Part shown: positions 2,608-18,292 of the stretch, in pieces
Numbering within the stretch: position 1 is the stretch's first letter
Layout of the letters: every line of letters starts with the position of its first letter
Virus record (IMG/VR): IMGVR_UViG_3300037493_002582
Location: 1 to 27,617 of that record
DNA length: 27,617 nucleotides
Source of the DNA: a virus
Reading direction: 5' to 3' (one strand)
The notes under the pieces: generated by a model
Databases searched by the model: none
Told to the model about the DNA's origin: nothing
Seen by the model: only the letters and a program-made list of their open reading frames with translations
Program-made: the position numbers and the translations under genes

Positions 2608-4962
2608 ATGCAGACGTTCGACCCGGCACGAGTAATCGCGCAGCGTCCTTGGTTCGAGCGTGCGCTCGAGGTCGTCGCGCCCGGCATCGCGCTCAAGCGG
2701 ATGCAAGCGCGGGTCGAGGCGGCATTGTTTTCTTACAACGCGGCGCAGACCAATCGCATTTATGCGCCGATGACATACGGTCAGCCGAGCGAATCGGCGC
2801 AGACGGTGCGCGAACGCATCGTGATGATGTGGGAGGCGCGGAATCTCGTCGAGAATTGCCCAGAGGTTAAGGAGATCAGCCGAAAGTTCGGCAACTACCT
2901 GACGCCGACGGAATATTCGCCGAGCACTGGTGACCGTGACTACAACCTCATGGTCGGCGAATACTTTCACGACTGGTGCAAGCGGGCCGACGTCACTGGG
3001 CGAAATTCGTTTCGCAAGCTCGTGCAGATTGCCGCCGAGAGTCGACCTGTGGATGGCGACTGCGGCTTTGTGATTCGGCGCGTCAGCGAAGGACTCAAGG
3101 TACAGCTCGTGCCAGGCACGCGCATCGGCAACCCCAACGATAGCGGGCTCAACTCCGAGAACTACTTCGAGGGAGTGATTGTTGATGACTTCGGAATTCC
3201 GACCGCCTATAGAATCTATCGCGTCACGCGCGAGGGCGTATATTTCGGTGCCGAGGATGTTTCGGCGCGGAATTTCGTGCATTACTTCGACCCATTTCGC
3301 GTCGATCAGTATCGTGGCGTTACTGACTTCCATGCGGCGATCCAAACGGCTCGAATGCTGCATGAGATACTGCAAGCAGAGAAGGCCGGCGTTCGCTTTT
3401 CCTCGCAGCAGTCTGCGCTGGTCTTTACGGATCGTGGCACCGCGAACTCGCGCAATCTGTTTTCGCCGAATCCCGCAAATACCCTGGCGAATGGGCAGAC
3501 GCAGAAAAATGAACTGTCTGAGGTCGGGATGATCAAATATCTCGGACAAGCGGATCGCGTCGAGACCATGCCAGCGCGTCCCAGCGCGGCGTTCACTGGA
3601 TTTGTCGAGCATCTGATGCACGAGTTGGCGATTGCAGTCGGCATCCCTGAAGGCGTGCTTTTCGGCACGCAGAATTATAAAGGACCAAGCGTCCGCGCGG
3701 AGTTCGCCGCGGCGGATCGAGTCTTCACGCGACATCAGGGTGTCCTCGTCGACAAGGTTCTTGATCCGATCAAGAACGCTGTGATTCTGGACGGTATCGC
3801 GCGCGGCGAGATTTCGGCGCCAGAGATGCAGGCCGGCGAGACGCCAGTGCAGGCGCTCAAGCGCGCGACCCGCGGCGAATGGAGATTCCCGCCCAAGCTA
3901 TCCATCGACGTGGGCCGGGACTCAGCGGCGAACCTCAACGAAAACCGACAGGGCGCGAAATCGTTGCAGGAGATCGCCGCGGAGCAAGGCACCGACGCAT
4001 TCACGCGCCTTGAACAGATCGCCGCCGAGGCAGCCTACGTGGGAGAACTCTCCAAAAAGTACGGTATTCCTGAGACAGCGATCCGCCTCGTCACGAACTC
4101 CTTGCCAAGTACGCCGGTTGCCGCTGCCGCAGTTGGCGATCAAGTCGGTGCATCCGCTGCGCAGGCCCAGCAAGCCGCGTCGTCGACACAACCTGCGGCC
4201 GAGAACACCACCGCAGCCGCCTCGGTCGAAACTCCCGTTGAGCAGTTGAACGCTTCGGCAGACCTGATCACGATTAACTTCGCGGCAGATTCCTACGTTC
4301 CCAACGACCGCATGGCTGCGAACGCGCGCCGGGCGCTTGAAGTGCGGGACAAAAAGCCGATCTTGCAGCGAGGGATGACAAGCGTGGGCATCGCACGCGC
4401 TCGCGATATCATGAACAAGCGCCCACTGTCGGCCGATACGGTGCGCCGGATGAAGGCATATTTCGATCGGCACGAGATCGACAAACAGGGAGAGACTTGG
4501 GACGAGCAGGGGAAGGGGTGGCAGGCATGGCACGGCTGGGGTGGAGACGCTGGCCAGACGTGGGCTAACGCTATCGTCGAGCGTCTGAATAAACAGAGGA
4601 CCGAAAATTCCGACAGGAGCGAAAGACGACAATTTAGCGCCGCCACCGAAGTCGCCCTCGCGATGAAGCAGGCTCCGGTTGATGTAAACGAATGGCTCCC
4701 CGCCGTCGCGCAATATCGCCGTGAGCTAGATCAGCGTGCGCTTAAATCAAGCTCTCCGATCATAGCCGGGAAGATAGCTGCTGACTTGGTTGCATCGAAA
4801 AATTTCGATCTGCCGACTCCGATGCCAGGAGAGAGCCAAGAGAATTTCATGGCACGTTGCATGACTAATCCTATCGCGACGGAGGAATTTCCAGACACCG
4901 CACAACGCACGGCAGTCTGTATGCATCAGCACGAAAACAAGTTTGCGAAGAGCCAACAATAA
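2608..4962 (+). CDS. Portal protein, lambda family, fused to a C-terminal extra domain
   Basis: 784 residues, much longer than the roughly 500-550 of lambda gpB-type portals. Residues 1 to about 490 are the portal: a gpB-like start with a crossing-helix region, YKGPSVRAEFAAADRVF near residues 353-369 (a stretch typical of lambda-family portals) and the segment GEWRFPPKLSIDVGRDSAAN. An Ala/Thr/Gln-rich linker follows (about 505-550). The last 230 residues are a separate domain: GMTSVGIARARDIMNKRPLS with KAYFDRHEIDKQG and WHGWGGDAG, then a tail with GESQENFMARCM and EEFPDTAQRTAVC. I know these two stretches from phage head proteins, often prohead-protease or minor capsid proteins, where their function is not settled. 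The portal forms the dodecameric DNA channel. No frameshift is visible across the junction, so the fusion looks genuine. Confidence 0.92.
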   Translation: MQTFDPARVIAQRPWFERALEVVAPGIALKRMQARVEAALFSYNAAQTNRIYAPMTYGQPSESAQTVRERIVMMWEARNLVENCPEVKEISRKFGNYLTPTEYSPSTGDRDYNLMVGEYFHDWCKRADVTGRNSFRKLVQIAAESRPVDGDCGFVIRRVSEGLKVQLVPGTRIGNPNDSGLNSENYFEGVIVDDFGIPTAYRIYRVTREGVYFGAEDVSARNFVHYFDPFRVDQYRGVTDFHAAIQTARMLHEILQAEKAGVRFSSQQSALVFTDRGTANSRNLFSPNPANTLANGQTQKNELSEVGMIKYLGQADRVETMPARPSAAFTGFVEHLMHELAIAVGIPEGVLFGTQNYKGPSVRAEFAAADRVFTRHQGVLVDKVLDPIKNAVILDGIARGEISAPEMQAGETPVQALKRATRGEWRFPPKLSIDVGRDSAANLNENRQGAKSLQEIAAEQGTDAFTRLEQIAAEAAYVGELSKKYGIPETAIRLVTNSLPSTPVAAAAVGDQVGASAAQAQQAASSTQPAAENTTAAASVETPVEQLNASADLITINFAADSYVPNDRMAANARRALEVRDKKPILQRGMTSVGIARARDIMNKRPLSADTVRRMKAYFDRHEIDKQGETWDEQGKGWQAWHGWGGDAGQTWANAIVERLNKQRTENSDRSERRQFSAATEVALAMKQAPVDVNEWLPAVAQYRRELDQRALKSSSPIIAGKIAADLVASKNFDLPTPMPGESQENFMARCMTNPIATEEFPDTAQRTAVCMHQHENKFAKSQQ

Positions 4963-4969
4963 GTCGACA

Positions 4970-6598
4970 ATGGATACCCAGACCCAGATTGACAGACTGA
5001 TTGAACTTGCGATCATACAGCGGAGCGAACTGAAGCAGTTGGTCGAGCAACTTCCCGAGCTGCGTGAGCATCTCAATAACGAGATACAGAGCATTTTTGA
5101 GCAGACTGAACCCGAGATCCGGCAGGAACTCGAAACCTTTTTTGAGAAGCAGACGACCGAACTTGGTTTGAAGCTCAGTGCAAGTTTGGAGGCGAAAGTA
5201 GCGGCGCTTGCCTCGGATCTCAATAGGTCAACGCAAGCGCGTTACAATGTGCTTAAAGAGCAGGAGCAGAAGCTGGAGACACTGCGCAGTAACGCGAAAG
5301 AGAACTTGGCCAATGAGGTTGCAGGACTGCCGGAAAAGGTAAAGGACTTGGTCGAGCAACAACTGGCCAAGTTCCCGATAGCCGGCGAAATTGAGCAGCT
5401 CCGACGCGAATTTGCTGAACCCAAAACGATAACGCCACGCGGGCGTTGGGAAGCCGGGATGACATACAACAAGCTCGAGCTGGTCTCCTACGCGGGCGAG
5501 AGTTATATTTCCAATGGAGACGGCAATCAGGAAAAGCCATCTCGTTCTTCTTCGAGATGGACGTTGGTCGCAGCGCGAGGAGGTCATTCTTTTTCGCAAG
5601 GAGGCAATGCTGGAGGCGGCGCAAGCGTCGCCGTAGTGTCTGTGCAGGATGACGCAGCCCGCTATGCGTTGACGGCGACGCAGGCTCCGGTCGGGACGAT
5701 TGTGCGCGTCGCGAGCACCTCTCAGGATTATCTCGTCATTGACACATCCGCACTCGGCACCGACTTGGGATATTCAAATCTGAATCCTGCCGGACCCGCG
5801 CAGATCATTTTGCGGCGCGGCAACACTTCCGAATTGGCAGCGATCACGCCGGCAGAAGCGGAGCCGGTGTATGATACTGAAAAGAAATTCTTGCGCATGG
5901 GTGACGGTGCAACATTGGCTGGAAACATTCCGCCGGCTGCTGAATTGGTCGGCGCAGATGGCAGACCGTGCGCTGTCAGTGTCACCACTGCTTCTGATCG
6001 CGGTTTATGCATTGCGGCAGATGGGGCTGGTGTGGGCGTCCCGACATACGGGGCAAATAAGATTACATACTCTGAAAACGGCCCAGATGCATCTCCTTAC
6101 GTTTTTTTTGATAGCAGTGGAGGCGCAGCATTTCTTTATCCTCCTTCATCTGGAGGAATCATCGAAATACCGGCGACAGGATTCCGGTATGTAGAACAAA
6201 ATGATGTATCCAAATCGAATACGACGTTTCTCTCTATCTCAGCGGCAAGTCTTCCCGGTAACGTTGCCTTTTCCTTCGATGCCTTGCTCTATTTCACGGC
6301 AGATGCGTCGGGGGGCGTCAAGGTAAGCGTCACCAGTTCATCGGGAGCAGACATATTGGGTCTCTTCTACAAAGTCGAAGCTCGGAAAGGCGATGGCAAT
6401 CTTGAGGTGTTCAATATCAGAACCTCTCTGACAGTTGATGCGAACACGGGCCATACAAACTACGTTTTCGATATTCGAGGCGGCTTTTATACTGACAATG
6501 CAACCGATTTCGGAATCAGTTTTGCCAAGAACGCGGCTGCTGGCGGCAATACTACACTGAAGAGCGGAAGTTACATTCGGTTGTTTCGAGCCGCATGA
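4970..6598 (+). CDS. Fibre-like adhesin: coiled coil, CBM-like and Mtd-N-like segments
   Basis: 542 residues from the ATG at 4970; a TTG at 4943 is less likely because it overlaps the portal gene. Residues 1-150 are a heptad-rich, charged coiled coil, as expected of a trimeric fibre shaft. Residues 158-200 have the pattern GRWEAGMTYNKLELVSYAGE...SRWTLVA, resembling small carbohydrate-binding modules found in phage fibres. Residues 225-320 (QIILRRGNTSEL...EPVYDTEKKFLRMGDGATL) resemble the N-terminal domain of the major tropism determinant and other phage adhesins. The rest is beta-rich and probably the binding head. A host-surface adhesin or head-associated fibre is likely. Its position right after the portal, rather than after the tail-tip genes, is unusual. 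The gene overlaps the next by four bases. Its AT content looks higher than that of the head genes, which suggests transfer. Confidence 0.75.
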   Translation: MDTQTQIDRLIELAIIQRSELKQLVEQLPELREHLNNEIQSIFEQTEPEIRQELETFFEKQTTELGLKLSASLEAKVAALASDLNRSTQARYNVLKEQEQKLETLRSNAKENLANEVAGLPEKVKDLVEQQLAKFPIAGEIEQLRREFAEPKTITPRGRWEAGMTYNKLELVSYAGESYISNGDGNQEKPSRSSSRWTLVAARGGHSFSQGGNAGGGASVAVVSVQDDAARYALTATQAPVGTIVRVASTSQDYLVIDTSALGTDLGYSNLNPAGPAQIILRRGNTSELAAITPAEAEPVYDTEKKFLRMGDGATLAGNIPPAAELVGADGRPCAVSVTTASDRGLCIAADGAGVGVPTYGANKITYSENGPDASPYVFFDSSGGAAFLYPPSSGGIIEIPATGFRYVEQNDVSKSNTTFLSISAASLPGNVAFSFDALLYFTADASGGVKVSVTSSSGADILGLFYKVEARKGDGNLEVFNIRTSLTVDANTGHTNYVFDIRGGFYTDNATDFGISFAKNAAAGGNTTLKSGSYIRLFRAA

Positions 6599-7836
6599 AA
6601 CTCAACGGAGGAGTCGCAACGGCGCAACCGCCGAAATCGGTGGATTTTGGATTTGGCAAACCATCGTGGTTCGAGGCCAGTCTTGAGACTATTGTGCCAA
6701 ATCGCGTTGTCAGCGGCTCGGCGAGCAGCACAACCACGGTCGATGACGCGAACCTTAACGTTTTCACCGGGGCCACGACGGCAGTGGATAAGTCTCTCAA
6801 TCTCGAAATTCTTCAGCCACGAACCTACGGAACAGCGCCAACGAAGACATTGACCGGAAATGGATTCGTCCAATTCGGAGACACCGCGCAAACGATCCTT
6901 CAGTCCGTTGGAAACGGAGCGGCCAGTTTGTCGCTCGTTTCCCCGACGCGAACACTTGTCCTGCCGGTCATTGGCCAAGTCTCGACAAGTTCGACAACCG
7001 CTCTTACGTCATGGGTGAGCGGCTCACTTGCTCGGCACATTTACGACAGCATGACGACGCTAGCCACCGGCATCACTCCGCCGAATGGTCTAACCGCAAA
7101 CACATTTATTGAGCAAGCCTCGCTATTTACTACGAAGGAAAACGGCGGAGGAATAGCGGTGCGCAACACCGCTCACTGGCTATCCTCAATAGCCCTATCG
7201 GGAATATCAACATGGAACAGCGCATATGGTAATCCTTGGCAGGCGATAGCCGTATCTACTCGCCACCTGATCAATGCGGCTCACGTAGCATACCCGCCTG
7301 GGACCAATATTTGGTTTTGCTCGGCCGATGGAAATAACACTCGAGTGTCTCGCACCATTACGAGTTATCAGACATTCAATTATCTCGGAGCTGCCACGGA
7401 TATCGGACTCGCTACGCTGAATCAAGATTTGCCGGCGTGGGTGTCTATCGCCAAGGTCATGCCGGCGAATTGGGCGACGGTAAAGTGCCCCGATCTGTCA
7501 TATACTTTACCCTTCATTTTCGTCACTCAGGATCAATTCGCATCAATCCGATCTGGCGCAACTGATGGCCAGATTGTAATGACCACGCGAGCAGCCGTCT
7601 CGGCAGACATCGGATACAGCAACTGGAATCCTTACGCCATCACTCCGCGCTCTGGCGACTCTGGAATGCCATTCCTCACGGTCGTAAACAATGAACTGGT
7701 TCTGCTTGCTGTTGGCTCCAGTGTTTCAGACGCGCGGTGCATCAGCCCAATCATCAGTCAACTCAACACGGCGATGGCCACCGCAGGAGCGTATTCACTG
7801 AGTCAGGCAAATTTGTCCTCGTTCCCCTCGTACTAA
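6595..7836 (+). CDS. Putative trypsin-like serine protease of the virion
   Basis: 413 residues. The C-terminal half reads as a chymotrypsin-fold protease: His230 in LINAAHVAYPPG, Asp269 in ATDIGLATLNQ and Ser356 in SGDSGMPFL. The intervals of 39 and 87 residues are close to those of chymotrypsin (45 and 93), and G354-D355-S356-G357 gives the classical oxyanion-hole motif. The N-terminal half (to about residue 170) is Ser/Thr/Gly-rich and beta-prone, like fibre sequence. There is no signal peptide or zymogen-type cysteine pattern. The start ATG overlaps the fibre stop (ATGA), so the two proteins are probably made together and may assemble together. Possible roles are cutting a host surface protein during adsorption or processing the fibre. 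Head maturation is less likely because a normal prohead protease is present at 10523. The fold call is from motifs read by eye; the substrate is unknown. Confidence 0.7.
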   Translation: MKLNGGVATAQPPKSVDFGFGKPSWFEASLETIVPNRVVSGSASSTTTVDDANLNVFTGATTAVDKSLNLEILQPRTYGTAPTKTLTGNGFVQFGDTAQTILQSVGNGAASLSLVSPTRTLVLPVIGQVSTSSTTALTSWVSGSLARHIYDSMTTLATGITPPNGLTANTFIEQASLFTTKENGGGIAVRNTAHWLSSIALSGISTWNSAYGNPWQAIAVSTRHLINAAHVAYPPGTNIWFCSADGNNTRVSRTITSYQTFNYLGAATDIGLATLNQDLPAWVSIAKVMPANWATVKCPDLSYTLPFIFVTQDQFASIRSGATDGQIVMTTRAAVSADIGYSNWNPYAITPRSGDSGMPFLTVVNNELVLLAVGSSVSDARCISPIISQLNTAMATAGAYSLSQANLSSFPSY

Positions 7837-7840
7837 TCAT

Positions 7841-8260
7841 ATGAAACTTGTAAGCCCGATATCTCTCTTTTGTGCCCTCGTCTTGATGGCTGCTCCCGCC
7901 ACGGCTCTCGCTGTATCCGTCAACCTGATTTGCACTTTTGATCCTCCCGTTGATGTAATCAATCAAGCCGGGATTGAATACGCAGTGGAAGCGCGGCGCA
8001 GTGATGGTTTGTGGGTCGAGGTTGCCCGAGGGCCGGGTTCTCCGAATATCGGGTCGGGCATGACAGGATCTTTGCTTATTACGTTCAACGACAACGTTCC
8101 TTTCGGAGTCTATGCCGTGCGTGTCGTCGTAATTAAGCCCATTCGAGGTCCAGAGAGCGAGATTGCCACGACCGACATCGTTCCTGGAAAACCGATGAAT
8201 CCTAAAATAAACGCAACGCGACCACCGACGTCGAACACGACTACGGCAAACCCGCGCTGA
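7841..8260 (+). CDS. Small secreted protein, possible fibronectin III-like domain
   Basis: 139 residues. Residues 1-24 are a clear signal peptide: MKL, a hydrophobic core SLFCALVLMAAPA, then a likely cleavage after TALA. The mature part has alternating hydrophobic strands (GIEYAVEARRSDGLWVEVA, then GVYAVRVVVIKP), compatible with one fibronectin III-like beta-sandwich, and a Pro/Thr/Asn-rich C-terminal tail. Export suggests action in the periplasm or at the cell surface during infection, not a place in the capsid. It follows the protease gene by four bases and precedes the DUF1353 gene by seven. No closer family is recognised. A superinfection-exclusion or lysis-accessory role is conceivable but unsupported. 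Confidence 0.65.
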   Translation: MKLVSPISLFCALVLMAAPATALAVSVNLICTFDPPVDVINQAGIEYAVEARRSDGLWVEVARGPGSPNIGSGMTGSLLITFNDNVPFGVYAVRVVVIKPIRGPESEIATTDIVPGKPMNPKINATRPPTSNTTTANPR

Positions 8261-8267
8261 TTAACCA

Positions 8268-8687
8268 TTGAGCTTCAAGGCACATTTCAGCGGCAACACG
8301 CTCTTTCGTGCGTTCACGCCAGAGCAACTGCTTGTTCGTTTCGGTTCTTCACGGTATCAACTGTACGAGCTGATGGAGCCTCTTGCTTTTGAGTCGATTC
8401 GTTTGAGAGATATAATCACCGTGCCAGCCGGTTTCGTGTCTGATTTCGCTTCTGTACCACGGGCGCTTCGGAGCATTATCGACAACGACGATCCAGGCGT
8501 CGTCATGCCGAGCATCGTCCATGACTATTTGTACAGGCACTCGGGAAAAGTTCCAGGGGGTCCATTCAGTCGACTTGAAGCCGACGACCTCATGCTTGAG
8601 GGCATGGAGGTTTGCGGCTTGCCGCCTACCAAGCGCCGGCTTGTATACATTGCGATTCGCGTTGGAGGCGCGTTCACATGGCGTTAA
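8268..8687 (+). CDS. DUF1353 family protein
   Basis: 139 residues starting with TTG at 8268 (CCATTGAGC); no closer ATG keeps the N-terminus. The sequence VPAGFVSDFASVPRALRSI followed by PSIVHDYLYR and, later, EADDLMLEGME is the hallmark of DUF1353, a family common in tailed phages. The conserved acidic and His residues (FVSDFAS, VHDYLYR, ADD) suggest a metal or catalytic site, but I know of no established activity. It lies upstream of lipoprotein and holin-like genes, so it may belong to a lysis or envelope-related set. The last 10 bases overlap the next gene if that starts at 8678. Confidence 0.85.
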   Translation: MSFKAHFSGNTLFRAFTPEQLLVRFGSSRYQLYELMEPLAFESIRLRDIITVPAGFVSDFASVPRALRSIIDNDDPGVVMPSIVHDYLYRHSGKVPGGPFSRLEADDLMLEGMEVCGLPPTKRRLVYIAIRVGGAFTWR

Positions 8688-9040
8688 AAAATGGAGGATA
8701 CGGGTTAAGTCGCAAAAAACGTGTCCGCCGCCGGCTTTGGTGGATTGGTCGTGGTCTGGCACCGCACCAATCCGATCCCGAATCCGTTCCGCCGGTCGGA
8801 CCAAATGCTTCTGCCGATTCTCAACTCATCTTCTATGCCATGAAACGCCTCGTACTGCTTCTCCCGCTCATCAGCGCCGGCTGCATGTCACACAAGCTGC
8901 CGGCGAACTCCTTCATGCAAGACGTGGAGTCCAAGATCAGCACGCCCTGGGGCTCGCACACGCTTGTAATCGGCATGGCCGCGACGGGCGAGGCAGCCAA
9001 GAACGTGTCGCTACCCGAGCCGGTGCCTAAGAAAAAATGA
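8678..9040 (+). CDS. Small lipoprotein, possible outer spanin; start 8678 or 8840
   Basis: The C-terminal 66 residues, from the ATG at 8840, are a typical lipoprotein: MKRLVLLLPLISAGC with lipobox ISAGC, then a short polar mature part ending PEPVPKKK. Size and position just before a holin-like gene fit an Rz1-like outer spanin that helps disrupt the outer membrane. The mature part is not strongly proline-rich, so the match is loose. The same frame is open upstream to an ATG at 8678 preceded by GGAGG (8666-8670 region), which would add 54 residues containing the very basic stretch SRKKRVRRRLWW. A leader that long in front of a lipoprotein signal is unlikely to be exported normally, so the two starts may give two products or the upstream one may be spurious. 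The end overlaps the next gene by four bases (ATGA). Confidence 0.55.
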   Translation: MALKNGGYGLSRKKRVRRRLWWIGRGLAPHQSDPESVPPVGPNASADSQLIFYAMKRLVLLLPLISAGCMSHKLPANSFMQDVESKISTPWGSHTLVIGMAATGEAAKNVSLPEPVPKKK

Positions 9041-11837: not shown

Positions 11838-12803
11838 ATGTATTCCAATGCTGCTGCCGTTTACCGCGGCGATATCGCAGGCGTCCTCGAACAAGCTAAA
11901 GATTGGGAGACGACCCTGATTGGCACGCGCGTGATGCCGATTCTCAATGTGCCGGTGCGCGCCGGTCAGTATCCGTCGTTTAAGCTCCGGGAGGGCCAGC
12001 TCCTAAAGAGCGAAGTCAAGGTGCGCGACCCTTATTCCTCGTTTGCGCGCGGCACTCGCGCGTTCACGCAGGAGACTTTCAACGCGCTTGAATATGGCTA
12101 CGAGGAGGCCGTCGACGATACCGTTAGCGCAGAGATGGCGCGATTCTTCGACGCGGAGGTGATCTCCGCAAAGCTCGCGCGCCGGAAGCTACTTCTCGCG
12201 CACGAAATCCGCGTTGCTGCTGAAATCTTCAGCACGGGCAACTTCACCTCTACGAACTCGGGCACGGCCTACACGACTGGAAACATCGCGAGCTTCGACG
12301 TCGGCGAGGACGTGCAACTGGCGATTGATCGCCTGCTGTCGAAGGGTGAAACCACGACCAATCTGCGCGTGGTTATCCCATACCCTGTGTGGACCCGAAT
12401 CCGCGCTTCGACGAAGTTCCAGAACCGCCTTCGCGGCGCTGGCATTAGCTCAGATACGATCCTGAATGCGAGCACGCAAGCCGCCGCCGAGGTCTTCGGC
12501 GTCTCCGAGGTGCTCATCGGACGCAGTGCTTACGACAGCGCCGCTGAGGGCGTCGCGTTCTCGGCCACACAGGTCTGGGCCAATACCTACATCTGGGTCG
12601 GATCTGTAACGGAGGGTGGCGCAGGGTTCTTCGGTGGCGGCGCCGGATTCACGCTCAACTGGTCCGAGTACGGCCCGGCGGTCGGCGTGTTCACCTACCG
12701 CGACGAGAGCATCAAGAGCAACATCGTGCGCGCCTCGCAGTACACGAGCGAAAAGGTCGTAAACACGAACGCGGGCGAGTTGATCGCTACCCAGTATAGC
12801 TAA
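11838..12803 (+). CDS. Major capsid protein
   Basis: 321 residues, a normal size for an HK97-fold shell protein without its own scaffold domain. The N-terminal arm ends in VPVRAGQYPSFKLREGQLLK, followed by a helical spine (EYGYEEAVDDTVSAEMARFF and KLARRKLLLAHEIRVAAE). Then come the domain TTNLRVVIPYPVWTRIRAS and AEVFGVSEVLIGRSAYDS, and the late strand region GFTLNWSEYGPAVGVFTYRD. Segments of this type, such as PVWTRIRAS...FQNRL and the FGV-x-EVLIG stretch, are typical of lambda gpE-like and related capsid proteins. It is followed by a strong intrinsic terminator, consistent with a need for high expression of this gene. No Shine-Dalgarno sequence is seen (ACAATG). Confidence 0.92.
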   Translation: MYSNAAAVYRGDIAGVLEQAKDWETTLIGTRVMPILNVPVRAGQYPSFKLREGQLLKSEVKVRDPYSSFARGTRAFTQETFNALEYGYEEAVDDTVSAEMARFFDAEVISAKLARRKLLLAHEIRVAAEIFSTGNFTSTNSGTAYTTGNIASFDVGEDVQLAIDRLLSKGETTTNLRVVIPYPVWTRIRASTKFQNRLRGAGISSDTILNASTQAAAEVFGVSEVLIGRSAYDSAAEGVAFSATQVWANTYIWVGSVTEGGAGFFGGGAGFTLNWSEYGPAVGVFTYRDESIKSNIVRASQYTSEKVVNTNAGELIATQYS

Positions 12804-12828: not shown

Positions 12829-12837
12829 CCAGATCGA

Positions 12838-12874
12838 CCCGCGCCTCGTAACAGGGGCGCGGGTTTCTGTTTTT
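12838..12874 (+). terminator. Intrinsic terminator after the major capsid gene
   Basis: CCCGCGCC (12838-12845), a 10-base loop, GGCGCGGG (12856-12863) and then TTTCTGTTTTT. The 8-bp all-GC stem followed by a T-rich run is a standard rho-independent terminator. It separates the high-level capsid transcript from the glycosyltransferase genes, so those probably receive only read-through or have their own promoter. Confidence 0.85.
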
Positions 12875-12878
12875 GACG
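12872..12878 (+). promoter_or_regulatory. TTTGACG element, copy 3
   Basis: TTTGACG overlaps the end of the terminator T-run and ends exactly 14 bases before the ATG at 12893. See the other copies at 2345, 10501 and 19102. Confidence 0.35.
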
Positions 12879-12892
12879 AGTTGCGCAGCCTC

Positions 12893-14608
12893 ATGCGTGT
12901 TTCCCTCTGCGTAATCTGCGGCAACGAGCAAGAGCATATCGTCACGATGCTCTCTTCCTTTCGACACTTCTTCGATGAGTTCTCGCTTGTCCGAGCCATC
13001 GGCGCCAAGGAGCCCGATGCGACTATCGAGCTTGCAGCGACGTGGTGCCGCGAGAATGGCAAGGTGATGCTCTCGACCGACTATTGCAACGGCCCCGGCG
13101 CGGAGCGGTGGGACCACGTCGACAGCTTTGCCAATGCGCGCAACGCCGCTTTCAAGTTGGCAAGCGGCGACTGGCTGATCTGGGCGGACTGCGACGACGT
13201 CCTTGAGGACTCAAGCGAGCCCGCGGCAATGGCATTTCGCGCCACGCTCGGCGCGCTACCAGAAAGCGTGTCAATGATCCGCTGCCAGTACGACGTGCGC
13301 GGAACGAACAAGAAACTGTACCGAGAGCGCGTGATCCGCGCGTCGCTCTTCGCAGCGGGACGCCGCTGGCATCACGACGTTCACGAGAATCTACTTTTGC
13401 TTGCTGGCGACAAGCACGAGGATCACGCGACCCCGATTTGGGTTCATCAACCCAAGTCCGTTAAAGTTGAAAACAGACGTCGAAATTTGCGAATCCTCGG
13501 ACACTCAGTGAAGGAGACGCCGACTCAGTATTTCTATATCCACCAAGAACACGTTTGCGCAGGAAATCGGCAGGCTGCTGAGCAGTTCGGCAAGATTGCA
13601 ATCAGCTTTCCAAATCTTGAGGCATCTTTCCGGTACGAAGCTTTGCTCAATCTCGCGAAGCTGTGTAACGATCACCGCGAGTCGCTGAACTACTCGCTGC
13701 AAGCACATGCCGTCTTCCCGTGGTGCCGAGAGGCTTACGCCGCGATCATCCTTTTGGCCTTCGAGAAGAACGATGGGCGTCGCGCCCGCTGGTGGGCCGA
13801 GGAGATGCTACGACTCCCCGAGCCTACCGGCGCAGATCGGCCGTGGACTACGGAGGATAAATATTATAAGTGGGCCGGCTATGATCTGGCTGCGCGTGCT
13901 TTTCGGCTCGACGGATACGAGGCTAGAGCCGAGATCCTGCAATGTCAGTTCCACCAGGGTCATAAACCGCGAATTTCGCTCCTCCACGCGACGCGCGGGC
14001 GCACATCGAAGGCAGTCAACGCTCGCGATGTCTGGCTGCAACTAGCCGAGCGACCGGAGCAAATTGAGCATATTTTCTCAGTCGACGCGGACGACAATGA
14101 AAGCGTGCAAATGGCGAAACAGTTCGTTTCGGTCACATCAGACAAGCGTTCGTGCGTCAGTGCGTGGAATTTGGCCGCGAAAAAGGCTCGCGGCGATCTG
14201 CTCGTGCAGTTCTCTGACGACTGGATTCCGCCGCCTAACTGGGACACGAAGCTCATGTCGCTTGTAGAAGGCCGAGACCTTGAGCGCGAGTCGGTCGTCA
14301 TCGCGGTCTCAGACGGCCATCGAACCGACAATCTCCTCTGTATGGCGATCCTGTCGCGCGCACGCCTGGAGGCGCAGGGCGAATTGTTTTTCGAGGGCTA
14401 CGAGTCCGTATTCAGCGACAACGAGTTCTCGCACCGTGCGTGGCGAGATGGCATTGTGATCGACGCGCGCGACCGCTTGAAATTCGAGCATCAGCATCCG
14501 GCTTTTGGCAAGGCGCAGATGGACGCGACCTACGCGCACAACAACTCGCGCGACCGCTACGTGGCCGGCGAGGCGATCTTCAAGATCCGAAACCCTGACG
14601 CGCAATGA
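12893..14608 (+). CDS. Two-domain family 2-like glycosyltransferase
   Basis: 571 residues from the ATG at 12893; a TTG at 12881 would add four. The N-terminal domain (1 to about 200) begins MRVSLCVICGNEQEHI, typical of GT2 (GT-A fold), and has the metal/nucleotide-sugar motif D99-C-D101-D102 followed later by HHDVHENLLL. A helical TPR-like stretch (about 205-320) follows. The C-terminal domain (about 357-571) is a second GT-A-like unit starting PRISLLHATRGRTSKAV, with D398-A-D400-D401 and D442-D443 in FSDDWIPP. Two transferase domains in one chain often add sugars in sequence. It is the first gene of a five-gene glycan cluster with 4-7 base overlaps. The cytosolic acceptor is unknown: virion protein, host surface precursor and DNA are all possible. 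Donor sugars cannot be read from the sequence. Confidence 0.85.
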   Translation: MRVSLCVICGNEQEHIVTMLSSFRHFFDEFSLVRAIGAKEPDATIELAATWCRENGKVMLSTDYCNGPGAERWDHVDSFANARNAAFKLASGDWLIWADCDDVLEDSSEPAAMAFRATLGALPESVSMIRCQYDVRGTNKKLYRERVIRASLFAAGRRWHHDVHENLLLLAGDKHEDHATPIWVHQPKSVKVENRRRNLRILGHSVKETPTQYFYIHQEHVCAGNRQAAEQFGKIAISFPNLEASFRYEALLNLAKLCNDHRESLNYSLQAHAVFPWCREAYAAIILLAFEKNDGRRARWWAEEMLRLPEPTGADRPWTTEDKYYKWAGYDLAARAFRLDGYEARAEILQCQFHQGHKPRISLLHATRGRTSKAVNARDVWLQLAERPEQIEHIFSVDADDNESVQMAKQFVSVTSDKRSCVSAWNLAAKKARGDLLVQFSDDWIPPPNWDTKLMSLVEGRDLERESVVIAVSDGHRTDNLLCMAILSRARLEAQGELFFEGYESVFSDNEFSHRAWRDGIVIDARDRLKFEHQHPAFGKAQMDATYAHNNSRDRYVAGEAIFKIRNPDAQ

Positions 14609-15126
14609 AACTGCAAATAGGCTGTGGGGACATCCGCCTCGAAGGCTGGGTAAATATAGATACGCGGAAGACATCGGCGACAGATCTTGTCTGCGACGTG
14701 ACGCGCATCCGAGATCATATCGCGGAGCCGGTCGAAGCAATCTATGCATGTCACGTCCTTGAGCATTTTGGATTCGGCATCTGTGAACCGCGAGCAGAAG
14801 ACGTTCTTCAAGGATGGGTCGATATGCTTGCACCGTCAGGAACGATCTTTCTCAGCGTTCCCGATTTAAAACAGATAGCCATCGGAATTCTGACATCTGA
14901 CGGGAGTTTCGCGGCAGAATACAATTTCATGCGCTGCCTGTATGGTGGCTCTGAATACGCCGAAAACCGGCACTTTGTCGGATTTACTCGGACGTTATTG
15001 AGAACGTTGATGAAGCGCGTCGGCTTGCGCCATGTTCGGCCGTTTGAATCTTTCGTCGATGATACTTCGCGCTTTGTACTGCACGGCGTGCCCATTTCGC
15101 TCAACCTGATGGGGATGAAGGCGTGA
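14605..15126 (+). CDS. SAM-dependent methyltransferase, class I
   Basis: 173 residues. LQIGCGD at residues 3-9 is the S-adenosylmethionine-binding motif I right at the N-terminus, followed by GWVNIDT (the acidic end of strand 2), CDVTRI and the post-motif HVLEHF (residues 50-55). This order is seen in small methyltransferases associated with glycan clusters (Methyltransf_11-like, predicted from a missing N-terminal helix). DMLAPSGTIFLSVPDL is the usual strand-5 region. The ATG overlaps the glycosyltransferase stop by four bases, so it is coupled to the cluster. O-methylation of a sugar is the simplest reading; a protein or small-molecule target is possible. Confidence 0.85.
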   Translation: MKLQIGCGDIRLEGWVNIDTRKTSATDLVCDVTRIRDHIAEPVEAIYACHVLEHFGFGICEPRAEDVLQGWVDMLAPSGTIFLSVPDLKQIAIGILTSDGSFAAEYNFMRCLYGGSEYAENRHFVGFTRTLLRTLMKRVGLRHVRPFESFVDDTSRFVLHGVPISLNLMGMKA

Positions 15127-15692
15127 AGATTTGCACGGCATGGATTAACGACGGCGACGCGCGGACGACAGTTGCGCAGGGAATGATGATGCGCAGCGTC
15201 CTTGGCCTCGGGCTTGAGCCAGTCATTTTCGAGGGATTTCCGCGCCCGCTACTCTCGGAGATGCTCACCAAGACGCGCGCCATCAGCACCGCGCCGGCTT
15301 TCCTGTGGGTCAATTCGGATTGCGTATTCTCTCCTGTTCTCGTCCGGTCTACGCTTGATCGGATGATCGAGGCCGACTGTGTCTGGGGATTTCGCCGCGT
15401 GGAGTCCGACGGCTCTGGCATCTGTGGCGGAGTGGATGCCTATCTATTCCCGATGCATCTATGGGATTCAATCTACGCCGATGATGTGCCGAAAATGTAC
15501 GTCGGGGGAACGCACGTTGACTGGTGGCTGACGCGCGCCGCGCAGAAGGCAGAACGCTACCGCGAGGCGGTCATGCTGATCCACGAGTCGCACGCGCGAT
15601 CCGAAACCAGCAAGGGCACCGACGTCTCAGGCCAACAGAATTTGATAAACTATAACTCGTGGGCCGACCGACACAGCATCTCGAAATGCTAA
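15123..15692 (+). CDS. Glycosyltransferase-like protein
   Basis: 189 residues, GTG start overlapping the previous stop (GTGA). The sequence MKICTAWINDGDARTTVAQG, then FLWVNSDCVF with N64-S65-D66 in the place of a DXD motif, then YVGGTHVDWWLTRAAQKAE and a His-rich end (LIHESHARSE), resembles compact GT-A-fold transferases found in phage and capsule clusters. It is shorter than usual GT2 enzymes (about 230-300), so it may be a minimal or partner-dependent enzyme. The alternative is a related nucleotide-sugar-binding protein without activity. It overlaps the next gene by seven bases. Confidence 0.6.
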   Translation: MKICTAWINDGDARTTVAQGMMMRSVLGLGLEPVIFEGFPRPLLSEMLTKTRAISTAPAFLWVNSDCVFSPVLVRSTLDRMIEADCVWGFRRVESDGSGICGGVDAYLFPMHLWDSIYADDVPKMYVGGTHVDWWLTRAAQKAERYREAVMLIHESHARSETSKGTDVSGQQNLINYNSWADRHSISKC

Positions 15693-16459
15693 CTATATTT
15701 ACTCTGGTGCTCAACGGTATGCCGCGTATCACGCAGCATTTTGAAACATTTCGCCAGCTTACGATCCCGTGGCGCTGGCGCATCGTTGAGGGCGTTTCCG
15801 ATCCCCTCAACTGCACTGCATGGTGTCGCCAGGTTCCGCCGAACTTCCATCGCGACGGACTGAGCATCGATGGCACAAGCGAGTACTTGGATGGCCTTGA
15901 GGATGCGCGCGTAACGGTCATTCGTTCCGACCGTCCTTGGGCTGGGAAGATCGCGATGATTTCTGCGGCGCTTGAGGGACTCGACGATGGCGTGGTGATG
16001 GAGATTGATGCAGATGAGATGTGGACCGCGTCGCAGATAGCAACGATTCATCGGACGCTGGCCTCAAGGCAACCCGGCGACGCGATGCAGTTCGCATGCC
16101 GTTACTTTGTCGGCCCGCGGAAGATGGTAACGACGGATGTGGGATTTGGCTCCATGCCTTATGAATGGTTCCGCGCGTGGCGTTGGGGGCCGGGCGTGGC
16201 CTTTATAAAACACGAGCCGCCGCAACTAAATAGAGAGGGCGCGATCTGCCCGAGGGAGGAAACCGTTCGCGCTGGGCTGGTCTTCGATCATTATGCATAC
16301 GAAACCGAGGAACAGGCTCGTTTCAAAGAGGCTTTCTATGGCTATGCAGGCTTGACAACAAGTTGGCAACGATTGCAGGCCACGCCAGGCGAGGTGCAAC
16401 TTTGCCGCTTTTTCCCGTGGCTAGAAAAACAACCTTGGGTAACCGCTAACGACATTTGA
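15686..16459 (+). CDS. Glycosyltransferase-like protein, GT-A type
   Basis: 257 residues from the ATG at 15686; an upstream GTG at 15659 would overlap the previous gene by 34 bases. The N-terminus MLTIFTLVLNGMPRITQHFE is the strand-turn-helix of GT2-like enzymes that act on glycans (compare FTLVLNG...M). The acidic motif D108-A-D110-E111 in VMEIDADEMW is the expected metal-binding DXD. Aromatic-rich stretches (EWFRAWRWGPGVAF and HYAYETEEQARFKEAFYGY) may form the acceptor site. It follows the previous gene with a 7-base overlap and is 5 bases before the next. Same pathway as its neighbours; the sugar is unknown. Confidence 0.7.
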   Translation: MLTIFTLVLNGMPRITQHFETFRQLTIPWRWRIVEGVSDPLNCTAWCRQVPPNFHRDGLSIDGTSEYLDGLEDARVTVIRSDRPWAGKIAMISAALEGLDDGVVMEIDADEMWTASQIATIHRTLASRQPGDAMQFACRYFVGPRKMVTTDVGFGSMPYEWFRAWRWGPGVAFIKHEPPQLNREGAICPREETVRAGLVFDHYAYETEEQARFKEAFYGYAGLTTSWQRLQATPGEVQLCRFFPWLEKQPWVTANDI

Positions 16460-16464
16460 AATCC

Positions 16465-17178
16465 ATGAGGGTATGTCTCGTTTACCACATGCGGCTGGGC
16501 GACATCATTCGCATTCTGCCAATCGCGCGATGCCTCGCGAGTCATGGGCACTTCGTCTACATCGAGTGCCTCGAGCAGTATTGGGGCATATTCGATTGCG
16601 TGAGCTACGCACGCCCAGCTCGACCGGAGGACCGTGCAACGATGCGCTACGGCCGAGTGATTGAGCTTCAAATCTGGCCTGACCGATACGCTGCCTTTAG
16701 GCGCAGCGGAGAATCGTGGGAGGACTTCGTGTTCAAGATTCATCCAGAATTTGCCGGGCTCGACCGCCGCCCAGTATTCGACCGAATCCATGAACAGCCG
16801 ACTCTTGCAGACTATGGATTCGCCCATCCGATCTGCCTTTTCTCGGCATTTGGTTACTCTCAGGCAAAGCGATACTCGGTTGAAGTTCTATTTGCCGCCT
16901 GCGTAGATCGCACACAATTGCCAATCGTTTTTCTCGTCGATCAGTCTCATCGAGATCATTTGATACGATCCGGCGTGGATGATAGGCACATGATTTGCGC
17001 TCGCTCTGCGGGTCATCTGCCTCGTTTAATCCGCGATGCCGCAGATTTCTTCACGATCAATTCAGCTCCAGCAATCATCGCAGCCTCCGTCCGAAAACAG
17101 TTCTGGCACGTTCTTTCCGGCAATGCGCAGGACGACACCATCTCGGATGCCTCGCAGATTGTTACAGTCGACCAATAA
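16465..17178 (+). CDS. GT9/heptosyltransferase-like protein
   Basis: 237 residues from the ATG at 16465; a TTG at 16456 would give a four-base overlap with the previous gene and add three residues. MRVCLVYHMRLGDIIRILPI is the glycine-rich start of GT-B-type family 9 transferases (ADP-heptose:LPS heptosyltransferase-like), and the C-terminal FFTINSAPAIIAASVRKQFW resembles their nucleotide-binding end, where an S-x-P/A-x-x-x-A segment is normal. It is shorter than a typical heptosyltransferase (about 330-350 residues), so a sub-domain may be missing or reduced. The gene ends 2 bases before the head-tail connector gene, closing the glycan cluster. Confidence 0.6.
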   Translation: MRVCLVYHMRLGDIIRILPIARCLASHGHFVYIECLEQYWGIFDCVSYARPARPEDRATMRYGRVIELQIWPDRYAAFRRSGESWEDFVFKIHPEFAGLDRRPVFDRIHEQPTLADYGFAHPICLFSAFGYSQAKRYSVEVLFAACVDRTQLPIVFLVDQSHRDHLIRSGVDDRHMICARSAGHLPRLIRDAADFFTINSAPAIIAASVRKQFWHVLSGNAQDDTISDASQIVTVDQ

Positions 17179-17180
17179 AT

Positions 17181-17498
17181 ATGGCCCTCCGCGATTTTGA
17201 TCCAATTCAGCTTGAGGCCGATCAATCTGCAATTCTTGCGCAAGCAGGCATCACGTTTTCGTATTTCGGCACCGCGATCACGGGCATCTGGTCTTCGAGC
17301 CGAACAATGTTCGGCGACTTTGAGGATCAGCGACGCGACGACGTGCGCTTCACGGTCTTCTTTACGACATCGCAGATCAGCGGCACGCCTGCGCCTGCGA
17401 CGACTTGCGTACGGGCGGGCGTGACCTACTTCGTCGAGCAAGTCCGGTTCGATGCGGAGGGAACGGGCTGCGAAATTGACGTCGCGAAAGTGATATGA
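17181..17498 (+). CDS. Putative head-tail joining protein, FII-like position
   Basis: 105 residues, starting with the ATG at 17181, 2 bases after the glycosyltransferase gene. It is beta-rich (ITFSYFGTAITGIWSSS, DDVRFTVFFTTSQ, TCVRAGVTYFVEQVRFD), a composition expected of the FII-type stopper that lies between portal ring and tail tube. Its place before the gpZ-like and gpU-like genes supports this. No invariant motif is available to confirm it, so the name depends on gene order. The last four bases overlap the next gene. Confidence 0.65.
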   Translation: MALRDFDPIQLEADQSAILAQAGITFSYFGTAITGIWSSSRTMFGDFEDQRRDDVRFTVFFTTSQISGTPAPATTCVRAGVTYFVEQVRFDAEGTGCEIDVAKVI

Positions 17499-18292
17499 TC
17501 GCGATCACCTTAGAAAATGAACGCCTTTCGGCGGCGCTGACCGAGCTGTCGCGCACATCGAAATTTGGTCTCGGATCCATTATCAAGGAGGAGGGCCGCT
17601 ACCTGACGCAACTTTTCATAAAGTTCACGCCTCCAAAAAGTAAAAAGGAAGGCGTTAACGCAGTCCGCAAGGATATAGGCAATATGGCGGCTGTGCTGGA
17701 TTACAACTCGCTCAAGGCCAAGGCGGCGCCAGGTAGTCTGTACGAGTCTATGGCGCGAATGGTGCGCAAGCGCGAGACCGAGAAGCTCAACAACCTTCTT
17801 CGGAACCCAGCCATTTCATACTGGGGAGGGCGCCGAGTCCTTGCCGACATCACTCAGGTTGCGGAGCTGCATCTGCGGGCGCGAAACAAGTACGGGCGCA
17901 TCAAGAGGGATCAAGGCTATGCTGCTTATAAGGCCGACCTGGGGCGTTACCGCAAGGCAATCGAGGATCGCGTGGGCTGGACGGTAGCGGGCTGGATTCC
18001 ATCAGCACGCGCGACTGGCGCTCGTTATAAAAAGTTTGCCGAGAGGCTGGCTGATAATGCCGGAGAGGTCCGGTTTTGGTTTGGCCGCGCCGACCAGCGT
18101 CCTGCGTTTATTTCTGCGCGCAACCGAAACGTGAAAATCCCGAATTACCAACGAATGATCGATGGCGCGTTCAACTCGCGCATTGCAACGACTCAAAAGA
18201 AAATCCAGCGCCTTCTCGCTGGGAAGGCTGTCAACCTCGGATTCGCAAAGGTACAAGGAACTCAAGCAATCCCAGAACTTCTCGCCGAGTGA
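17495..18292 (+). CDS. Tail completion / minor tail protein, gpZ-like
   Basis: 265 residues, basic and helical, with a conserved-looking N-terminal part (SIIKEEGRYLTQLFIKFTPP) and a C-terminal half rich in Arg and Lys. The length, charge and location immediately before a gpU-like terminator match lambda gpZ/HK97 gp10-type proteins, which act at the head-proximal end of the tail. The stretch FIKFTPPKSKKEG is typical: the tail-completion domain commonly has a TPP motif. The ATG overlaps the previous stop (ATGA). It ends with a GTGA overlap with the next gene. Confidence 0.75.
   Translation: MIAITLENERLSAALTELSRTSKFGLGSIIKEEGRYLTQLFIKFTPPKSKKEGVNAVRKDIGNMAAVLDYNSLKAKAAPGSLYESMARMVRKRETEKLNNLLRNPAISYWGGRRVLADITQVAELHLRARNKYGRIKRDQGYAAYKADLGRYRKAIEDRVGWTVAGWIPSARATGARYKKFAERLADNAGEVRFWFGRADQRPAFISARNRNVKIPNYQRMIDGAFNSRIATTQKKIQRLLAGKAVNLGFAKVQGTQAIPELLAE

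Follow-up and report, generated by a model that had tools for sequence, protein, structure and literature searches.

Five genes on a fragment of phage DNA probably form a modular protein-glycosylation set that decorates the phage's own virion; we put the probability of this reading at about 0.7. The fragment (the window, 27,617 nt, IMG/VR record IMGVR_UViG_3300037493_002582) carries this set, here called the cassette, at positions 12893-17178, and the arrangement is the standard layout of an uncultured freshwater phage group. The genes and their surroundings are as follows:

11838..12803, + strand: major capsid protein (MCP), phrog_1005 (PHROG E 9e-28)
12836..12875, + strand: intrinsic terminator at the boundary of MCP gene and cassette (a GC stem of 12 pairs followed by TTTCTGTTTTTG)
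12893..14608, + strand: gene 1, 571 aa, GT-A/TPR-like helices/GT-A (Pfam GT2, AlphaFold model, PDB fold matches, GmaR profile)
14605..15126, + strand: gene 2, 173 aa, probable SAM methyltransferase, slot occupant (weak Methyltransf_23 match, LQIGCGD)
15123..15692, + strand: gene 3, 189 aa, second occupant of the slot, resembling GT-A in its motif only (N-S/G-D)
15686..16459, + strand: gene 4, 257 aa, GT2-family glycosyltransferase (Pfam GT2, D-A-D-E; start from alignment)
16465..17178, + strand: gene 5, 237 aa, compact GT9-like (GT-B) glycosyltransferase (AlphaFold and Foldseek; start from alignment)
17181..17498, + strand: head-tail connector/attachment protein, bordering the cassette on the right (weak Phage_attach match, E 0.013)

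The five cassette genes are real and intact. Their positions, order and strand agree with the original prediction, except that the alignment of relatives very likely moves the start of gene 4 from 15659 to a conserved ATG at 15686, and that of gene 5 from 16456 to 16465. The cassette is beyond chance on account of the Pfam GT2 match of gene 1 (PF00535, E 2.8e-12, 47.3 bits against a cut-off of 23.3, in two stretches), of same-place homologues in more than 100 distinct contigs, and of purifying selection, i.e. dN/dS values of 0.07-0.20 when genes 1, 4 and 5 are compared with relatives (almost every comparison falls within 0.04-0.20). These values are far below 1, which rules out decaying or parasitic genes. 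The predicted coupling by overlaps and short gaps holds within the cassette, where genes 1-2 and genes 2-3 overlap by 4 nt and genes 3-4 by 7 nt, provided that gene 4 starts at 15686; the end of gene 5 and the connector ATG at 17181 are 2 nt apart, and the connector gene is conserved as the right border among relatives. The coupling does not extend to the MCP gene, which is separated from gene 1 by an 89-nt gap with a strong terminator. All-against-all hhalign of the cassette families gave only weak links (every probability <25%).

It is conspicuous that in two uncultured phage lineages that diverged deeply a gene 1 homologue follows the MCP gene in every distinct junction (88/88 and 49/49). 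The MCPs of these lineages are 65-91% and 37-38% identical to that of the window, respectively; overall there are more than 100 distinct capsid-cassette junctions. The cluster had been described as unusual, but related phages carry it at this same boundary, which shows that it is the rule in this group. The identical order in these junctions also rules out a misassembled contig. Among 50,697 phage records no cultured relatives of the MCP or of gene 5 were found, and gene 1 has distant, domain-level matches only.

The AlphaFold model of the gene 1 protein (pLDDT 90.3) comprises a GT-A domain (residues 1-190), TPR-like helices (192-353) and a second GT-A domain (361-571). Its nearest solved structures are the protein S-glycosyltransferases SunS and ThuS (7msp matches at 3.8 A across about 300 columns, with about 17% identity), and its profile matches GmaR, a flagellin O-glycosyltransferase (E 1.3e-11). 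The succession of a GT-A and a TPR-like helical domain that is found in SunS/GmaR-type enzymes is thus present in the model and in the Foldseek matches, and the proposed two-domain GT2-like enzyme does have glycosyltransferase folds. The DXD-type motifs named in the original prediction are all present, although not equally conserved: D99-C-D-D102 of gene 1 is invariant across 20 relatives and D108-A-D110 of gene 4 (D-A-D-E) in seven sequences, whereas of D398-A-D-D401 in gene 1 only D401 is invariant. A 461-aa class of gene 1 shows erosion of its second GT domain, and here a GT-A-like protein fills the slot behind the gene. Judged from model and sequence, gene 1 likely encodes an initiating protein glycosyltransferase combined with a transferase for a second sugar.

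The region behind gene 1 is an exchangeable slot. Its alternatives are unrelated to each other, i.e. methyltransferases, glycosyltransferase-like proteins, nothing at all, or gene 2 plus gene 3 as in the window, and the occupant families include Methyltransf_23, Methyltransf_24/TylF, DUF5672 and GT2. Six or more slot states are seen across the two lineages, some of the occupant kinds being common to both. Rampant shuffling within lineage 1 is ruled out, as the capsid tree requires six changes for seven states; slot types M2-M5 are each confined to one clade, and the state of the window is a recent change inside an M1 clade. The original prediction does not mention slot swapping.

Gene 2 is a probable SAM methyltransferase: it carries the predicted LQIGCGD motif and resembles Methyltransf_23 below the cut-off (E 0.0086, 16.2 bits against 27), and no relatives of it were found in viral contigs. 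The slot methyltransferases of relatives clear their Pfam cut-offs (61.9 against 27 and 61.0 against 26.3 bits), and the proposed methylation step is supported by the fact that unrelated methyltransferases fill the same slot. Gene 3 has no match in Pfam or PHROG, and its relatives occur only in two lineage 2 contigs (L161 and L238), located behind a methyltransferase gene. Its N64-S-D66 motif reads N-S-D or N-G-D in both; on this motif alone it is possibly GT-A-like and a candidate transferase.

The GT-A-like character of gene 4 was borne out by the Pfam GT2 profile (PF00535), which the window sequence matches below the cut-off (E 0.0012, 19.3 bits against 23.3) and the relative L123 above it (E 1.5e-7, 31.9 bits). 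The gene 5 model (pLDDT 94.3) has a compact GT9 fold, with GT9 structure 3tov, TibC and WaaC as the top Foldseek matches in the PDB (E 1e-7 to 5e-6, TM-score by query about 0.66-0.69). The GT9-like start noted earlier is also present. As the window sequence does not match PF01075 even at E<=10, we call the protein GT9-like rather than GT9. Searching PDB sequences with profiles of genes 4 and 5 yielded no credible match. On the whole the enzyme assignments of the original prediction largely hold, and its interpretation is supported in part.

A conserved, covarying intrinsic terminator separates the MCP gene from the cassette (12836-12865 plus a T-tract; folding energy of 12831-12880, -26.4 kcal/mol). 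It is kept in 70 of 73 intergenic regions of lineage 1 and in 44 of 55 of lineage 2, and 7 of 10 stem pairs are altered on both sides with pairing retained. This element, too, is absent from the original prediction. A promoter downstream of the terminator was considered and rejected: TTTTTGAC is conserved there, but its three occurrences in the window are close to what chance would give, and the region behind the terminator showed no sigma-70 site. With the MCP gene insulated in this way, production of the cassette enzymes would depend on read-through and stay below that of the capsid.

We propose the following mechanism. In gene 1, the N-terminal GT-A domain would transfer a first sugar from a host nucleotide-sugar to a Ser/Thr (or Cys) residue of the virion protein that the helical repeat domain grips, and this step would take place in the cytoplasm without a lipid carrier. 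The C-terminal GT-A domain may add the second sugar. Gene 4 (GT2), gene 5 (compact GT9) and perhaps also gene 3 may extend the chain, which the slot enzyme, here the gene 2 methyltransferase, would O-methylate or otherwise cap. Exchange of the slot occupant would alter the outer glycan. The decoration could serve to shield the particle from a receptor, a predator or a competitor, or to present variation against one of these. A protein, as originally proposed, is the best reading of the acceptor in comparison to lipid or DNA, given the SunS/GmaR-type initiator, the lack of membrane segments and the lack of a general base-hydroxylation pathway. A bolder formulation, to which we give somewhat less than even odds, is that a constant, capsid-tied bidomain initiator lays the core while a plug-in slot swaps unrelated caps from a pool shared by distant lineages, i.e. 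a lipid-independent phage protein O-glycosylation with serotype-like variation of the virion.

Which virion protein is modified was approached by mirror-tree comparison of gene 1 with candidate acceptors, which gave no clear winner (r 0.80 for the cement protein, 0.77 for the tail terminator, 0.76 for the connector, 0.53 for MCP). In a variant of the virion reading that we regard as rather unlikely, the glycan sits on a tail or adhesion protein instead of the head, serves host recognition, and the slot is swapped with the host receptor type. Among phages with nearly identical capsids, the connector/neck protein of the same operon exists as several divergent alleles, the operon includes a variable Mtd_N fibre region (with a reverse transcriptase of a diversity-generating element in 0/27), and part of lineage 2 has LamG lectin-like genes between the MCP gene and gene 1. 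However, gene 1 is always behind the MCP gene, and no clear link was found between neck alleles and slot type.

Two weaker rivals place the glycan outside virion proteins. Glycosylation of the phage DNA, in which a cytosine methyltransferase and TET would provide 5-hydroxymethylcytosine for a methylated glycan that blocks restriction, is improbable in our view. C5 cytosine methylases are present in genomes of relatives, and published work describes viral transferases that build DNA glycans of several sugars (Pyle et al. 2024, as listed among the references of PMC12619734 and PMC13216743). Nevertheless, the cassette occurs in every relative, whereas TET (PF12851) exceeds the cut-off in 2/38 relatives, with one more weak match, and the TET-associated glycosyltransferase TAGT (PF20691) is found in 3/38, at loci outside the cassette; these counts refer to relatives, as the window itself lacks early genes, and since most contigs are incomplete an absence is weak for any single genome. 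Cassette-bearing contigs of 37-47 kb have neither, and a thymidylate-synthase-type hydroxymethylase was found in 0/27 relatives. Together these counts speak against a general DNA modification, and gene 1 is akin to protein glycosyltransferases, not to DNA ones. Modification of host surface sugars (LPS/O-antigen), leading to superinfection exclusion or receptor change, appears very improbable. Temperate phages commonly modify sugars for exclusion, and the fold of gene 5 is that of GT9, i.e. of LPS heptosyltransferases. On the other hand, none of the five proteins has a membrane-like segment (max KD19 1.43), the cassette contains no flippase-like gene, its place in a late morphogenesis operon is late for exclusion, and the tight linkage with the capsid gene that both lineages show speaks against a role at the host surface.

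If the cassette does decorate the virion, it provides a natural series in which the last glycan step varies on a nearly constant particle, so that close relatives can be compared to test which selective force acts on a phage's outer sugar. Moreover, the family offers biochemists a set of protein glycosyltransferases and sugar methyltransferases that are compact and soluble.

The cassette can be compared with several known systems. The glycocin S-glycosyltransferases SunS/ThuS (PDB 7msn, 7msp, 7msk) share the GT-A plus helical-repeat layout with gene 1 and have a protein or peptide acceptor, as proposed here, and SunS is prophage-derived (SPbeta); gene 1 differs in its second GT-A domain, its location in a morphogenesis operon and the low identity mentioned above. 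GmaR (PDB 22ao), the Listeria flagellin O-GlcNAc transferase, which also acts as an anti-repressor, distantly resembles the first GT-A domain, the match being limited to the GT domain. Gene 5 shares its fold with the WaaC/WaaF heptosyltransferases and with TibC, a protein heptosyltransferase, but it is shorter than GT9 enzymes (237 against about 320-400 aa) and 10-13% identical to them. Serotype conversion by Gtr relies on a membrane-bound GtrA-GtrB-Gtr(type) set, and the cassette lacks such a membrane-bound flippase/glucosyltransferase. TAGT glycosyltransferases of TET-phage DNA hypermodification clusters occur in a minority of genomes of this phage group, whereas by Pfam none of the cassette proteins is a TAGT. 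Few cases of glycosylated phage particles are known. In Mycobacterium phages (Che8, Rita and others; Freeman et al. 2023, as cited in PMC11256854 and PMC12619734), phage-encoded glycosyltransferases act on major virion proteins, and glycans are reported on the C-termini of capsid and tail-tube subunits. Maravista has its two GT genes near the 3' end of the genome, whereas the cassette consists of 2-5 genes fixed directly behind the capsid gene and has, besides a bidomain initiator, methyltransferases and a slot with exchangeable occupants. No sequence relatives of the cassette were detectable in the phage collection. Although glycosylation of virions is already known, the modular, capsid-linked layout was found neither in the 50,697 phage records nor in the literature searched.

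The five-gene cassette between the major capsid protein (MCP) gene and the head-tail connector gene is standard in two deeply diverged lineages of uncultured phages. Relatives were gathered by scans with the MCP (225 related stretches) and with gene 1 (277). In lineage 1, to which the window belongs (MCP 65-91% identical), gene 1 lies next to the MCP gene in 88/88 distinct MCP junctions having enough sequence; the same holds for 49/49 distinct junctions of lineage 2, which was found by way of gene 4 and whose identity is 37-38% for the MCP and about 32% for gene 1. At the right-hand border the connector follows. The original prediction had suggested looking for the cluster at this boundary in related phages, and a gene-1 homologue is present there in both lineages; its view that such a cluster is unusual inside the head-to-tail order does not hold for this phage group. 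Among 50,697 phage records no homologue of the MCP or of gene 5 was found, and gene 1 gave distant domain-level matches only. The sole match in genome collections, L185, shares 15.5 kb of identical sequence with L128, an IMG/VR contig of the group, and the binning of L185 in a betaproteobacterial MAG weakly suggests such a host.

The window record is linear (27,617 bases, IMG/VR virus) and its late operon is siphophage-like, i.e. large terminase, lambda-type portal, fibre-like region, metallophosphoesterase, head protease, cement protein, MCP, the five-gene cassette, head-tail connector, neck protein, tail terminator, tape measure, distal tail and J-like tail tip. All five cassette ORFs are intact and neighbours abut or overlap; alignment of relatives places the start of gene 4 at 15686 and that of gene 5 at 16465. 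No clear Shine-Dalgarno sequence precedes most late genes (MCP, genes 1, 2, 4, 5 and connector).

The position behind gene 1 is an exchangeable slot, and its five lineage-1 families (M1-M5) show no mutual alignment.

Slot states in lineage 1
M1, Methyltransf_23: 49 loci
M2, GT-A-like by motif: 23 loci
M3, GT2: 10 loci
M4, DUF5672: 9 loci
M5, Methyltransf_24/TylF: 6 loci
Empty, nothing behind gene 1: 2 loci
Gene 2 + gene 3, the state of the window: 1 locus

On the lineage-1 MCP tree six changes suffice for these seven states, and that of the window is a recent change within an M1 clade. Lineage 2 also has M1- and M5-type occupants, together with its own methyltransferase and GT-like alternatives; two of its contigs repeat the window's arrangement with another methyltransferase beside a gene-3 homologue. 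Gene 4 and gene 5 are each optional.

Other genes vary as well. Several phages carry an HNH-type ORF between MCP and gene 1: ORFs of one family, F6, occupy this junction in L003, L004, L008, L021, L058, L095 and L138, and scans of three of them gave HNH endonucleases or matches near the cut-off. In part of lineage 2 (L166:1135-2194, L171, L186, L192) the interval between MCP and gene 1 encodes a LamG protein (concanavalin-like lectin) and another of 98 aa, possibly a decoration or glycan-binding pair. The neck protein gene beside the connector (17495-18292) has about nine or more divergent alleles, and since phages with 99-100% identical MCPs carry different ones, it is swapped on its own. The region from portal to metallophosphoesterase/protease (4943-9030) is strongly variable among relatives and includes a protein with an Mtd_N (major tropism determinant) domain; a reverse transcriptase was found in 0/27 relatives.

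The 89-nt gap after the MCP gene holds a 12-pair GC-rich hairpin with a T-tract (12836-12875; -26.4 kcal/mol for 12831-12880). Terminator-like elements occur in 70/73 lineage-1 gaps, as against 3.6% of mononucleotide shuffles, and in 44/55 lineage-2 regions. Across 22 diverse gaps, 7/10 pairs changed on both sides with pairing kept. The capsid gene is thus insulated, and the cassette would be expected to be expressed by read-through, below capsid level. The T-tract leads into a conserved TTTTTGAC (12870-12877); TTTTGAC stands there in 68/73 lineage-1 gaps, about 15 nt upstream of gene 1.

Gene 1 (571 aa) has two Pfam GT2 matches, and its model (pLDDT 90.3, from 20 sequences) has a GT-A domain on either side of a helical-repeat domain. 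Among solved structures its fold is nearest to the peptide-glycosylating enzymes SunS and ThuS (7msp, a shorter SunS chain: 3.8 A over about 300 columns). Used as a profile, gene 1 has as its top PDB sequence GmaR (1.3e-11), a flagellin glycosyltransferase. Gene 1 is a putative protein-glycosyltransferase-like initiator. In a class with a short gene 1 (461 aa) the second GT domain is eroded and M2 fills the slot, as would be expected if M2 replaced that step.

Gene 5 lacks any Pfam match, PF01075 included, but the fold of its model (pLDDT 94.3) is matched by GT9 structures that include WaaC and the protein heptosyltransferase TibC. Judged by its relatives, gene 4 is a predicted GT2; gene 2 is a probable methyltransferase, its match lying under Pfam's cut-off. 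The glycosyltransferase folds originally proposed are thus recovered for gene 1 (GT-A) and gene 5 (GT9), while gene 3 is called GT-A-like by its N-S-D motif only, which is kept in its two known relatives.

Soluble enzymes, a protein-GT-like initiator, capsid linkage, the late-operon place and a slot filled by sugar- or methyl-transferring kinds of enzyme together favour a virion protein as the probable target of glycosylation. Among candidate acceptors, correlation with the distances of the first GT domain is highest for cement (0.80), with tail terminator (0.77) and connector (0.76) close behind. That the cassette glycosylates phage DNA instead is unlikely: TET was found in 2-3/38 relatives (G005:27879-28343; G007:36812-37276), TAGT in 3/38 (G013, G015, G017) and the thymidylate synthase family in 0/27. 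A hydroxylated base is accordingly no general feature, though most contigs are fragments. Some of this minority may glycosylate DNA as well as carrying the cassette. Modification of the host surface seems less probable still, as the membrane proteins expected for that role are missing from the cassette.

Compared with known systems, glycosylation of a virion protein has precedent, being established in Mycobacterium phages (via PMC11256854, PMC12619734). In the literature searched no capsid-linked modular cassette was described, and within that scope this layout is new. The flagellin transferase FlmG grips its acceptor with helical repeats (PMC7591256), a role that those of gene 1 may share.
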